Source of the DNA: Methylothermaceae bacterium
Lineage (GTDB): Bacteria > Pseudomonadota > Gammaproteobacteria > Methylococcales > Methylothermaceae
Reading direction: 5' to 3'
Assembly: GCA_026981855.1 (NCBI GenBank)
Contig: JALSIB010000014.1
Location: 1 to 64,000 of the forward strand
DNA: 64,000 nt
Part shown: one piece after another, positions 3,058 through 39,460 of the stretch
How the letters are laid out: the number at the start of each line of letters is the position of its first letter
How positions within the stretch are numbered: position 1 is the first letter of the stretch
Program-made: the position numbers and the translations under genes
The notes under the pieces: generated by a model
Seen by the model: the letters and a program-made list of their open reading frames with translations, nothing else
Databases searched by the model: none
Told to the model about the DNA's origin: nothing

Positions 3058-6000
3058 ATGCTCGCCACCCTGATTGAAGCTTCCATTCGCCTGCGGGGCG
3101 CGGTGGTGGGGCTATGTCTGCTCCTGGTCTTCTACGGGGGCTGGCGGCTGTCACAGGCGGGGCTGGATATTTTCCCCGAGTTCGCCCCCAAACAGGTGGT
3201 CGTCCAGACCGAGGCGCCGGGACTGACCGCGGAACAGGTCGAAAGACGCATCACCCAGACCATCGAAAACAGTCTCGGGGGGCTGGCGGGCCTGACCGAC
3301 CTGCGCTCCGAATCGATTGCCGGGCTGTCGGTCGTGACCGCCATTTTCGCCGAGGACACCGGGCTTCAGGATACCCGGCAGCGGATCGGCGAACGCCTGG
3401 CCGCCCTGGCGCCGGGACTGCCCGCGGGGACCGGCCCGCCCCTGGCGGTTCCCTTGTCCTCTTCTTCCGCCACCATCCTGACCCTGGGCCTGACCGGAAA
3501 GGATCTTCTGACGCTGCGGGATTTCGCCGACTGGACCCTGGTTCCCCGGCTGCTGGCCATCCCGGGCGTGGCCGATGTCAACGTCTTCGGCGGCGGCAGG
3601 CGGCAATTGCAGATCCGTCTCGATCCGGAAAAACTGTTTCGCCACCGGCTGGGGATCAACACCGCGCTGGAAAAAATCGAGGGCGCGTTGCAACGCCATG
3701 GAATGGGGTACCTGTCCACCCCGAACCAGCGCCTCGATCTGATATTGGGCGGCGGCCGCTTCCCCCTGGAAAGGATACGCCGGCTTCCGTTGTCTCCCGC
3801 CCTCACCCTGGACCGGGTGGCGGAGGTCGGCTGGGGACAGGCGCCCCCGTTCAGCGCGGCGCAGGTGGGCGGCGACCGGGGGCTGGTGTTGATGGTCATC
3901 GGCCAGTACGGCGCCAATACCCTGACCGTCTCGCGGGCGGTGGAGAAGGTTTTGGACGACTTCCGCCCCCTGCTCGCCACCCAGGGCATCTCCCTGCATC
4001 CCCGCCTGTTCCGGCCGGCCGACTACATCGAGCGATCCCTCCGCAGCCTGGGGGGGCACCTGTTGCTGGGGGCGGGACTGGTCGTCATCGTCCTCTATGG
4101 TTTCCTCGGCGACTGGCGGAGCGCCCTGATCTGCACCCTGGCCATTCCCCTCAGCCTCCTCGCCGCCGCGCTGGTGCTCATGGAATCCGGCATCCACCTC
4201 AACATCATGGTTCTGGGGGGGTTGGCGATCGCGCTCGGGGAGGTGGTGGACGATGCCATCATCGATACCGAAAACATTTTCCGCCGGCTGCGGGAGAACC
4301 GGCTTCGCCCAACGCCCCGCCCGCCGGCGGAAATCGTCCTGCGGGCGTCGCTGGAAGTCCGGGGTTCGGTGGTCTATGCCAGCTTCATCGTCGCGCTGGT
4401 TTTCGTCCCCCTCCTGACCCTCGGCGGTGTCGCGGGACGCCTGTTCGCACCGCTGGGCAGCGCCTATATCCTGGCGATCCTCGCCTCGCTCGCGGTGGCG
4501 CTCACCGTCACGCCGGCGCTGGGCTATCTGTTGCTGGCCCGGCGCGGGCGGCACGCCGAACCTCTTTTGCCGCAACGCCTGCAACATCGTTACACCCGGC
4601 TGCTGGCCTGGATCCTGCGGCACCCGAAACCGGTCTGGGGAGGCGCGCTCGTCTTGTGCCTGGCGGCCTTCGGCAGTCTGCCGGCATTGGGCGGGCGGTT
4701 CCTGCCCGAACTTCGGGAAGGTCACTTCATCGTCCACACCGCCAGCCTGCCGGGCACCGCCTTGCCGGCTTCCCTGCGGTTGGGAGAACGGCTCACCCGA
4801 TCGTTCCTGGAGATCCCGGGGGTGGTCTCGGTGTCCCAATGGGCGGGGCGCGCCGAACGCGGCGCCGACACCTACGGCAGCCATTACAGTGAATACGAAG
4901 TCCATCTCGAACCTTCCGGCAGCAAGCGGCAACAGGCGGTTTTGGAACGCATCCGTGAAGTCCTCGGCCGCTTTCCGGGAATCGCCTTCGAGGCCAATAC
5001 CTTCCTGACCGAACGGATCGACGAAACCCTAAGTGGCTATACCGCTCCGGTGGTGGTCAATCTGTACGGTCCCGAAACCGGCACCCTCGACCGTCTCGCC
5101 CGGGAGGTGGCCGGGCTGATGAGGTCGCTGCCGGGCGCCCGGGATGTCAGGATCCGCTCGCAAACGGCCCTGCCTCAACTGTCCGTCGAACCCGATTTCG
5201 AGGCGATGGCCTTGTGGGGCGTCACCCCGGGCACCCTTTCCGGCATTCTGCATACCGGTTACGCCGGACAAAAGGTGGGGGAAAGTTATCACGGCAACCG
5301 GGTCTTTCCGGTGACGGTCCTCCTGCCGGAGAAATTGCGCGCCGATCTTTCCACCCTGCCCCGCCTGCCCGTGGAAACCCCGGCGGGCGACCTGCTCCGC
5401 CTGAAAGATCTGGTTCGCGTGCGCCCGGGGGAAGGCCGTTACAATTACCTTCACCACAGCGCCCAGCGGCTGCAAGTCGTCACCGCCAACCCTTCCGGGG
5501 ATCTGGCGGGTTTCACCGAACGGTTGAGAAAACAGGTTCTGTCGCACATCCGCTTTCCCCCCGGTTACGCGCCGGAATTCACCGGCGCGGCGGTGGAACA
5601 AAGACGCAGCAAGTCGCGATTGATCGTTCACGCGCTGCTGGCGGGCGCGGGTGTGCTGCTGCTGATCCAGGTCGCCATCGGCTCCTGGCGCCATACCCTG
5701 CTGACCCTGGTCAACCTGCCTTTCGCCCTGGTGGGCGGCATAGCGGCCGTATGGCTGGACGGCGGCATCGTGTCGGTGGGTTCGATGGTGGGGTTCGTGA
5801 CCTTGTTCGGGATCACGGTCCGCAACGCCATCATGTTGATCTCGCACTACCGGCGGCTGGTGGTGGATGAAAAATCAGAATGGAACACGGCCACCGTCAT
5901 CCAGGGGGCCAAAGACCGCCTGCCCGCCGTCCTGATGACCGCAACCGTCACCGGCCTGGCGATGCTGCCGGTGGCCTGGGGCAGCGACAACCCCGGCCGG

Positions 6001-35963: not shown

Positions 35964-37052
35964 ATGGCCAAAAAAACACAAAGTTATAGCTGCGATTTTC
36001 TGATCGTCGGCCAGGGCCTTGCCGGCAGCCTGATGGCTTGGCGGTTATGGCATACCGGCGCCAGAATCATGGTGGTCGATCCAGGCGGCAACAATGCCTC
36101 CAAGGTGGCGGCCGGACTCGTCTCCCCTGTCACCGGCAAACGATGGGTCAAGATGCGGCAGGTTGACGAGTTGTTGCATCAGGCACGCCGAACCTATCGG
36201 CGATTGGAGATGGAACTGGAGATCCGGCTGTGGTTCGAGCACAAATTGCTGCGCCTCCACCAAAGCAGGGCGGAAAGCTCTCTCAGCAAAAGAAGGGCCA
36301 CGGAACCCGGCTACCGGGATTTTCTGGCGGCCGAGCTCGAACCTGGATGTGCCGGTCATGGCTTGGTGGATGACTTCGGTGGCCGCTGGATAGAGGGAGC
36401 GGCCCATTTGGCGACGACCCCGCTACTGGAATCCCTGCGGTCCTGGCTCGAGGAAAGAAACGTCCTCCGTTCCCACTCCATCGCCTACGCCGATCTCAAA
36501 GTGGGGGAGACGGGAATCCAGTGGCGGGATGTAAGGTGCGATTTCGTGATCTTTTGCGAGGGCTGGAAGGTGATTCACAACCCCTGGTTCGCCGGCCTGC
36601 CATGGCAACCCAGCGCCGGGGAAATTCTCACTCTGGAATCCCCCGATCCCCTGCCCCCCCATCCGCTCAACCGGGGTATCTGGTTGCTGCCGGAGGGAAA
36701 GGGACGAATCCGGATCGGGGCGACCTACCGCTGGCATCCGCTGGACGAGGCGCCCTGCGAAGAAGGTGTCGGACATCTGTTGGCCTCGTTCCGGAAACTG
36801 TTTCACACCCCTCCCCGATATCGATGTCAGACAGCCGCCGCCGGCGTCAGACCCAATACCCTCGACCATCACCCCATGGTCGGCGCCCATCCCCGCTTTC
36901 CCCGATTGATCCTGGCCAACGGATTCGGTTCCAAAGGCACTCTGTACGCTCCCTGGTGCAGCGAAAAGTTGACCGAACACCTGACACAGGGACATCCTTT
37001 ACCCCCTGAAATCAGTATTGGCCGGTATTTGGAGAGGGCGGATGGAAAATGA
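35964..37052 (+). CDS. DAO-family FAD-dependent oxidoreductase, possible MnmC1-like
   Basis: About 362 residues. An FAD-binding dinucleotide fold is at the N-terminus (FLIVGQGLAGSLMAWRL), and the C-terminal FAD-contact block GVRPNTLDHHPMVGAHP is followed by ANGFGSKGTLYAPWCS. This is the D-amino-acid/glycine oxidase superfamily, which includes the MnmC oxidase domain that removes the carboxymethyl group from cmnm5U in tRNA. The gene overlaps the MnmM/YtqB-like methyltransferase by 11 nt. That pairing suggests tRNA wobble-uridine processing; an amine or amino-acid oxidase is the alternative. ATG 35964 is chosen over an upstream ATG at 35907. Confidence 0.75.
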   Translation: MAKKTQSYSCDFLIVGQGLAGSLMAWRLWHTGARIMVVDPGGNNASKVAAGLVSPVTGKRWVKMRQVDELLHQARRTYRRLEMELEIRLWFEHKLLRLHQSRAESSLSKRRATEPGYRDFLAAELEPGCAGHGLVDDFGGRWIEGAAHLATTPLLESLRSWLEERNVLRSHSIAYADLKVGETGIQWRDVRCDFVIFCEGWKVIHNPWFAGLPWQPSAGEILTLESPDPLPPHPLNRGIWLLPEGKGRIRIGATYRWHPLDEAPCEEGVGHLLASFRKLFHTPPRYRCQTAAAGVRPNTLDHHPMVGAHPRFPRLILANGFGSKGTLYAPWCSEKLTEHLTQGHPLPPEISIGRYLERADGK

Positions 37053-37686
37053 AGGCGGATACATTCCCTTGACCGAACAGGCGCAGGCATTCATCTCCGG
37101 ACACGTCCAGGAAGGGGACGGGGCAATCGACGCCACGGTCGGCAATGGCCATGACACCGCCTTCCTGGCGCGCCTGGTGGGCGCCGGCGGAAAGGTGTTC
37201 GGCTTCGACATCCAACCGGCCGCGATCGAGACCGCCAGGGAGAAACTCGCCCGCTTGGGCTTGGCACGGCGTGTCGAGTGGATCTGTGACTGCCATGGAA
37301 AGCTGGCCCGGCATATCCCGGAAGATTGGCACGGCCGGATTCAGGCGGTGATGATCAACCTGGGGTACTTGCCCGGGAGCGACAAACGGATCACCACCCA
37401 CCCCCGCACCACACTGGCGGCCTTGTCGCAAGCCCTGGATCTGCTGTCTCCAACCGGCAGGATCAGTATAATCGCCTATACCGGGCATGGCGGTGGGCAA
37501 GAAGAGGCCAACGCCATCGGCCAGTGGCTCGCCACCCGGCTACCGGGCCAAAGACGCTGGAGACGGGTGGTGCCAGGTGGCAGGCGATCCCCTCCCCAAT
37601 TGTTCCTGATCGGACAGGGGCAACCCCCCACTGACCGGCAATGCGACAATCCGAAAAAAAAACTTGTTCCAGCCACAACACCATGA
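37042..37686 (+). CDS. MnmM/YtqB-family SAM methyltransferase
   Basis: A 214-residue protein. DATVGNGHDTAFLA is the SAM-binding motif. INLGYLPGSDKRITT and AYTGHGGGQEEANAI match the Bacillus YtqB family, which methylates nm5(s2)U34 in tRNA to mnm5(s2)U (MnmM). ATG 37042 has a GGAGAGGG site before it and lies inside the end of the FAD oxidoreductase gene. With that oxidoreductase it could supply both late steps usually carried out by bifunctional MnmC. Confidence 0.8.
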   Translation: MENEGGYIPLTEQAQAFISGHVQEGDGAIDATVGNGHDTAFLARLVGAGGKVFGFDIQPAAIETAREKLARLGLARRVEWICDCHGKLARHIPEDWHGRIQAVMINLGYLPGSDKRITTHPRTTLAALSQALDLLSPTGRISIIAYTGHGGGQEEANAIGQWLATRLPGQRRWRRVVPGGRRSPPQLFLIGQGQPPTDRQCDNPKKKLVPATTP

Positions 37687-38993
37687 AAACGCATCGCCCG
37701 CTTGGGTGGGTACTCGTCGTCACGCTGCTTGTCGGGTGCGCCGGGCAAATCGTCAGAAAAGCCCCGCCACCGCCCGCACCGCCTGAAACCACCCGATTCC
37801 GGCTTACGCCCGGAAATTCGGTGATTGGCCATATCTACCGACTGAGGCTCCGTGACGGAGACACCCTGGCCGATGTGGCCCGCCATTTCGCCATCGGGCT
37901 GCAAGCCCTCCAGGATGCCAACCCCAGTATCGACCCCTGGATACCGCCGGCGGGAAAAGAAATCATCCTGCCGCTGGCCTTCGTCCTCCCGGCGGTACCG
38001 GGCGGCGGGATCGTGATCAATCTTGCGGCCATGCGCTTGTTTCATTTCACCTCGGAGAAGGAAGTGGAAACCTATCCGGTCGGCATCGGCCGCGCCGGCT
38101 GGAAGACCCCTCTGGGGACGACACGGATCGTTCAGAAGAAGAAACATCCTCGCTGGGTGGTGCCGGCATCCATTCTCCGGGAACACGCCATCCGGGGCGA
38201 TCCTTTGCCCCGAGTGGTTCCGCCGGGACCGGACAATCCATTGGGAAACCGTGCCTTGCGCCTGGGATTTCCGGGTTATCTCATCCACGGCACCAACAAG
38301 CCCTATGGTGTCGGACTTCGCATCAGTCACGGCTGCATCCGGCTCTACCCGGAAAACATCGAAACCCTTTTCGCCCACACCAAAGTCGGAACGCGCGTCA
38401 CGATCGTCGATCAACCGTATCTGCTCGGGTGGTGGGGCAAGCAGCTCTACCTGGAAGCCCACCCCCCGCTGCAAGCCGGCGAAGGGGAGAGAAGAAAAAA
38501 GCGCAGAGCGCTCATCAAACGCCTGCGGAACATGGCCGAAAAAAGCGGCCTGGAAATCGACTGGAAACGGGTGCGAAACACCTTGCTTGAAGCCCGGGGA
38601 ATTCCGGTGCCCATTCTGAAATCCTCACCCGATCTGGAACGGTTACTGGCCCGACTCCTCCGGATGCCGCACCCCGGAAGATGGCCCCATGCCCCGGAGC
38701 TTCCCCCTCTGGCACCCGGCTGGCTGGTGACTCTCGACATCCCCCTGACCGACCGTGCCGCCGGAAAGCTGACCGCCATCCTGCGTCACCAGACGCCCCC
38801 CATACCCGCCCATCAAATGGGGGATCAGGTGATCATCGGACCTTATGAAGACCAACGCGGCGTCAATGCCGTCCTGTCGCGCCTGAAGAGGGATCTCGGG
38901 CTGAAAGGACGAACAGTGACGCCCGTAGCGAGCCGAAGCTTCCTGAAAGCGCCGGCCAGTCATTCGTTGTACAGAACGAACGCCTCTCCATAA
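37683..38993 (+). CDS. L,D-transpeptidase (YkuD) lipoprotein
   Basis: A 436-residue protein. The signal ends in the lipobox LLVGC (Cys 19). A LysM-like region (about 44-92) precedes a YkuD domain (about 110-245) with the catalytic HGT...ISHGCIRLYP motif. A Lys/Arg-rich linker and a C-terminal domain, possibly SPOR-like (about 345-420), follow. It would form 3-3 peptidoglycan cross-links or attach proteins to peptidoglycan in the periplasm. Its ATG overlaps the preceding stop. Its 3' end overlaps the convergent TIGR04073 gene by 34 nt. Confidence 0.9.
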   Translation: MKTHRPLGWVLVVTLLVGCAGQIVRKAPPPPAPPETTRFRLTPGNSVIGHIYRLRLRDGDTLADVARHFAIGLQALQDANPSIDPWIPPAGKEIILPLAFVLPAVPGGGIVINLAAMRLFHFTSEKEVETYPVGIGRAGWKTPLGTTRIVQKKKHPRWVVPASILREHAIRGDPLPRVVPPGPDNPLGNRALRLGFPGYLIHGTNKPYGVGLRISHGCIRLYPENIETLFAHTKVGTRVTIVDQPYLLGWWGKQLYLEAHPPLQAGEGERRKKRRALIKRLRNMAEKSGLEIDWKRVRNTLLEARGIPVPILKSSPDLERLLARLLRMPHPGRWPHAPELPPLAPGWLVTLDIPLTDRAAGKLTAILRHQTPPIPAHQMGDQVIIGPYEDQRGVNAVLSRLKRDLGLKGRTVTPVASRSFLKAPASHSLYRTNASP

Positions 38994-39352
38994 GTGGTGT
39001 CCCCCCGAAAATCCTGCCACACAAAGGCCGGCTGGGGTATCGGTTTGGTGGGAACGGGAAAGGTGATCACGTCCAGGGCACCGGTGAACAGACGCCCCAC
39101 GGTATGCCCGATTCCGAAGGAAATGCCGGAAATCAGCCCCCAGGCGACCCCCGGCACCCCCTCATCATAGTGACTGTTGTTGTATCCGTTGATCATGCAC
39201 TTCGGCAGCTCCACCCAGGACAGAACGACATTGCTCAAGCCGGCGCCAAGCTTGTAGCCCACCGCGCCCGCGTAGGTTTCCTGGGCGTTCAGGTTTCCCG
39301 CCAAAACAGCCAGCAAGAAAGCCAGTACGAATCCTTTGAACCGATAGCGCAT
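38960..39352 (-). CDS. Exosortase-associated TIGR04073-family protein
   Basis: A 130-residue exported protein (signal peptide 1-23, cleavage near NLNAQE). It contains KLGAGLSNVVLSWVELPK and a glycine-rich GVAWGLISGISFGIGHTVGR hydrophobic stretch, then ends in PAFVWQDF. This pattern matches the small TIGR04073 family seen in genomes with exosortase/PEP-CTERM systems. Three consecutive ATGs occur; the last (39352) is best spaced from AGGAG. No exosortase gene is in the window. Confidence 0.75.
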   Translation of the reverse strand: MRYRFKGFVLAFLLAVLAGNLNAQETYAGAVGYKLGAGLSNVVLSWVELPKCMINGYNNSHYDEGVPGVAWGLISGISFGIGHTVGRLFTGALDVITFPVPTKPIPQPAFVWQDFRGDTTYGEAFVLYNE

Positions 39353-39460
39353 CATCATTCTCCTGTAGCAGAACTCCCGAAGCAAAACCCGCCCGTGACA
39401 GACAGGCCCTTCTATAACCATAGAAAACCTTGCGCGGTTTGCAAGTGATCCGGCGCAACG

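Follow-up and report, generated by a model that had tools for sequence, protein, structure and literature searches.

The locus considered here raises the question of how a gammaproteobacterium might finish the tRNA wobble nucleoside mnm5(s2)U34 with two separate genes rather than with the fused mnmC. In tRNA, MnmE-MnmG make cmnm5(s2)U34 or nm5(s2)U34. Both MnmE and MnmG are near-universal in bacteria (PMC9976899). The window (the whole 64,000-nucleotide stretch of DNA that was analysed, from a Methylothermaceae bacterium) contains a run of genes that bears on the steps that follow:

35964..37052, + strand: DAO-family FAD oxidoreductase, 362 aa (ATG at 35964, TGA at 37050-37052; intact ORF)
37042..37052, + strand: 11-nt overlap of the oxidase and MnmM coding sequences, read from the sequence
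37042..37686, + strand: MnmM (YtqB family), a predicted tRNA nm5(s2)U34 methyltransferase of class I, 214 aa (ATG at 37042, TGA at 37684-37686; intact ORF)
37683..38993, + strand: L,D-transpeptidase (YkuD) lipoprotein (PF03734, 79 bits)

The sequence-only reading had described a DAO-family gene overlapping a methyltransferase gene of the YtqB/MnmM family by 11 nt and had proposed that the two replace MnmC. The description is accurate (both ORFs are intact, and the oxidase matches PF01266 [DAO] at 118 bits), and the overlap is consistent with coupled expression of the two genes by translational coupling. We put the probability of the proposal itself at roughly 0.8: the oxidase, a homolog of MnmC(o) that probably forms its sister clade, would convert cmnm5(s2)U34 to nm5(s2)U34, and MnmM, which is non-orthologous to MnmC(m), would carry the product on to mnm5(s2)U34. 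We favor this reading because of the identity of MnmM, the absence of MnmC and MnmL, the linkage of the two genes, the exclusion between MnmM and PF05430, and the residue, tree, and structure comparisons of the oxidase.

The family assignment of the methyltransferase is borne out by both profile and residue comparisons. The protein matches PF06962 (126.5 bits) and exceeds the equivalog cutoff of the NCBIfam model for MnmM (NF053511; 179.8 bits against 135), and its closest solved structures are those of YtqB/MnmM (4pon, 8h0s, and 8h1a). In Bacillus subtilis MnmM (bsMnmM), mutation of the tRNA-binding or catalytic residues D34, N101, Y104, K110, Y141, and H144 abolishes activity (PMC9976899); the aligned residues here are the identical D38, N106, Y109, K115, Y146, and H149, and across 112 aligned relatives each is either invariant or kept in the majority. 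A further essential residue of bsMnmM, K11, contacts U33 (PMC9976899); its position would tentatively be Q15 here and H in 78 of the 112 relatives, a correspondence drawn by offset, with the B. subtilis N terminus outside the alignment. By curated cutoff and key residues, the methyltransferase is MnmM.

The refutation test set beforehand for a two-gene replacement was the presence of a full-length mnmC at another site, and this assembly (2.75 Mb in 60 contigs, 99% complete) has none. Across the whole genome there is no match to PF05430 (MnmC(m)) and no MnmC(o) over cutoff, so that a hidden mnmC is rejected. MnmL, a radical-SAM protein, is likewise rejected as the real oxidase: its family (TIGR01212) has no member over cutoff in this genome, where the best score is 26 bits, and it is missing from most genomes that carry the pair.

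The identity of the oxidase has to be argued from several lines of comparison, and it is here that the main competing explanation arises, namely, that the protein oxidizes glycine or another small-molecule amine (as a further ThiO-like enzyme or as a D-amino-acid dehydrogenase) and is cotranscribed with MnmM only by chance. By raw score, the top curated profile is indeed that of ThiO (TIGR02352), at 107.7 bits, somewhat higher than the 78.7 bits obtained with the MnmC(o) profile (TIGR03197, MnmC_Cterm). Both values, however, fall under the curated cutoffs (250.8 for the ThiO equivalog and 174.2 for the MnmC(o) equivalog domain), as do those of ten relatives of the oxidase, and no curated NCBIfam equivalog model covers the family. 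The possibility that this gene is the genome's own ThiO is rejected: the true ThiO is a separate gene (C60/L002) that scores 281.7 bits against the same cutoff of 250.8.

Residues and phylogeny point toward MnmC(o). Residues G252, R296, G307, and G325 of the oxidase align with G518, R567, G578, and G619 of Escherichia coli MnmC, which belong to a set that is more than 98% conserved among bifunctional MnmC proteins (PMC3648344). In the alignment, the oxidase motif NGFGS[KR]G resembles the [LH]GSRG of MnmC and is unlike the GHxRNG of ThiO, which is missing from the oxidase. A careful tree recovers the oxidase as a clade of its own (support 100/100), outside the MnmC(o) clade, and separates the two together from ThiO, the D-amino-acid dehydrogenases (DadA), and further DAO proteins with support of 99/95; the same split had 85 in a preliminary quick tree that included fewer outgroups. 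The oxidase clade is therefore plausibly sister to MnmC(o), although this grouping joins two long stems and could reflect long-branch attraction. By these comparisons, the oxidase shares ancestry with MnmC(o) without qualifying as MnmC(o) on the curated score. The earlier expectation of a non-homologous split route thus stands for the methyltransferase, which would be a non-orthologous replacement, and fails for the oxidase, which is homologous to MnmC(o) and groups with it.

The predicted structure of the oxidase (AlphaFold; pLDDT of 93.1, pTM of 0.90) is nearest, among solved structures, to glycine oxidase (Z of 36.0), followed by CmiS2 (35.3), MnmC (33.6), and the iminodiacetate oxidase IdaA (33.0). 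The presence of glycine oxidases in this group could be taken to favor a small-molecule substrate; as far as is known, all four enzymes attack N-carboxymethyl amines, which is the chemistry needed to pass from cmnm5U to nm5U. A fold held in common with such oxidases, as predicted by a model, would not by itself prove function. It is because of the MnmC(o) residues, the tree grouping, and the nearest structures together that we regard the protein as a probable cmnm5(s2)U34 oxidase.

The distribution of the two genes speaks to the same issue. Among 80 named oxidase loci taken from a species-level collection, MnmM lies directly 3′ of the oxidase in 61, mostly with overlaps or very short gaps similar to those of the present pair, and 0.6 to 2.7 kb downstream in three. 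The order is reversed in a single locus (L207 in Omnitrophota, positions 3382-5050), where the MnmM and oxidase genes still overlap or abut. MnmM is not nearby in the remaining 15 loci, nine of which belong to genomes with MnmM elsewhere. The oxidase occurs, among other taxa, in Methylococcales, Nitrosomonas, Mariprofundaceae, Sedimenticola, Ectothiorhodospiraceae, Verrucomicrobiota, and Omnitrophota, and linkage holds at 30 to 40% protein identity over several phyla, far beyond chance. One species with the pair is Methylotuvimicrobium buryatense (strain 5G). A split pair is, as proposed, present in this gammaproteobacterium, but it is not peculiar to this genome, being widespread in Methylococcales and beyond.

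Within Methylococcales (61 genomes), 32 genomes carry the oxidase and 28 carry MnmM, and every one of the latter also has the oxidase; a convincing MnmC occurs in none of the 61. (PF05430 matches of 22 to 25 bits in three relatives are weak, marginal, and partial, and were not counted as MnmC.) The four oxidase-only genomes comprise two in which the locus meets a contig end (G005 and G058), one clean absence (G006), and one with an MnmM remnant (G020): in this last genome, MnmM fragments with in-frame stops lie directly 3′ of an intact oxidase (L028, contig C13:52493-52739), which on sequence is a recent loss of the methyltransferase. At the level of the class (369 genomes), 28 genomes have the oxidase, 31 have MnmM, and 26 have both, adjacent in 25. 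MnmM is thus found in 26 of 28 oxidase genomes versus five of 341 others (Fisher P of about 1e-32, uncorrected for phylogeny). PF05430 is present in 86 of the 369 genomes but in none of the 31 with MnmM (P = 2.5e-4, phylogeny ignored).

A small-molecule oxidase that happens to share a transcript with MnmM sits poorly with linkage that spans several phyla and withstands a reversal of gene order, as it does with the largely joint loss of the two genes within the same genus and order; given also the low ThiO score, the true ThiO elsewhere, and the missing ThiO motif, we consider that explanation improbable. Still less likely, at long odds, is that the oxidase serves another step of wobble-uridine metabolism, for instance with the ammonium route of MnmEG providing the substrate of MnmM and the oxidase working in repair or recycling of modified nucleosides or on a different xm5U. 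In favor of this, nm5U that comes straight from MnmEG is a substrate for MnmM, and f162 genomes have MnmM but no oxidase; against it, the oxidase resembles MnmC(o) in residues, tree, and fold, and neither another MnmC(o)-like candidate nor, in this and most pair genomes, MnmL is there to take its place.

Under the two-gene replacement of MnmC, MnmEG would supply cmnm5(s2)U34, and the flavoprotein would oxidize its N-carboxymethyl (glycine) moiety to an imine, hydrolysis of which would release glyoxylate and leave nm5(s2)U34. MnmM would then use SAM to methylate the exposed amine, yielding mnm5(s2)U34, a role that we infer from curated orthology and that is known as an activity of orthologues in the literature. 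Where a genome has the oxidase and lacks a methyltransferase, the pathway would stop at nm5(s2)U. Oxidase genes are kept in some genomes that have neither MnmM nor MnmC (G006, G094, G429, G433, G434, and G438), and MnmM is kept in f162 genomes that lack the oxidase; both patterns weigh against the proposed replacement. Gammaproteobacterial genomes with MnmM but no oxidase (L103, L104, and L105 in G214, G324, and G419 of family f162, plus L096 in G380) would need nm5(s2)U from the ammonium branch of MnmEG; for G380, MnmL is another possible source: a TIGR01212 protein is encoded elsewhere in G380, whereas the f162 genomes have neither the oxidase nor TIGR01212.

One further genome, G413, has the oxidase without MnmM and encodes, on a separate contig, a standalone MnmC(m) (a 253-aa frame) with which the oxidase may be paired instead. 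The G413 oxidase (L074) is diverged, at 30% identity. More tentatively, and at somewhat less than even odds, the oxidase clade as a whole may be a distinct, widespread, stand-alone cmnm5(s2)U34 oxidase with interchangeable methyltransferase partners, mostly MnmM but a standalone MnmC(m) in G413.

Compared with known systems, the pair is closest in predicted output to the bifunctional MnmC of E. coli and Yersinia pestis: the same two reactions are predicted, and the oxidase half is homologous, with FAD and active-site residues as well as the fold (Z of 33.6) retained. It differs in comprising two genes rather than one, in having a PF06962 rather than a PF05430 methyltransferase, and in an oxidase that forms a separate clade and lacks the insert of ~26 residues that precedes the last strand in MnmC(o). 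With the MnmL-MnmM route of Gram-positive bacteria (PMC9976899 for MnmM; MnmL as cited in PMC12548931), the pair shares the methyltransferase and the removal of the carboxymethyl group by a separate enzyme, but that enzyme is here a predicted FAD oxidase and not MnmL. ThiO, IdaA, and CmiS2 are similar in fold and probably in acting on an N-carboxymethyl amine, but the oxidase scores under the ThiO cutoff, has another motif, and is linked to a tRNA methyltransferase and not to genes of thiamine or other pathways. The standalone MnmC(m) proteins (MnmC2/MnmD, Aquifex DUF752) are also part of a split arrangement, although their methyltransferase is of the PF05430 type and not MnmM (PF06962); to our knowledge, their partner oxidase is usually unknown.

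Within the largely open-access literature searched, we found no description of the oxidase-MnmM pair; the MnmL paper, which was not part of that literature, reportedly mentions alternate arrangements. The 2023 description of MnmM stated that the MnmC(o)-like partner in MnmM-containing organisms was unknown (PMC9976899), and MnmL was later named as the enzyme for this step in Gram-positive bacteria (cited in PMC12548931). The comparisons made here support a variant route to mnm5(s2)U that is both new and widespread, in which a stand-alone oxidase related to MnmC(o) would act with a non-orthologous methyltransferase. It offers a specific candidate flavoenzyme for the cmnm5(s2)U step in Methylococcales, Nitrosomonas, Mariprofundaceae, and others; would assign a function and a pathway to an oxidase family outside the curated NCBIfam equivalog models; and corrects the view of MnmM as an enzyme found mainly in Firmicutes and plants, with proteobacteria using MnmC. 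If the more tentative reading of interchangeable partners is true, the stand-alone clade would add a third enzyme to MnmC(o) and MnmL for this tRNA reaction and could account for the missing oxidase of organisms whose MnmC(m) is an orphan.

As to the surroundings of the pair, a divergent surE adjoins its start, and scans for promoters and terminators gave no signal clearly over chance. The next gene in the run encodes the L,D-transpeptidase lipoprotein; its ATG overlaps the MnmM stop by 4 nt, and the gene is probably unrelated to the pair's function. At 38960-39421 lies a small membrane-type protein with a subthreshold match to a phage holin family (PF05449, 22.3 bits versus 25.4). A similar lipoprotein also lies 3′ of the oxidase in G006 (L012), a locus without MnmM.
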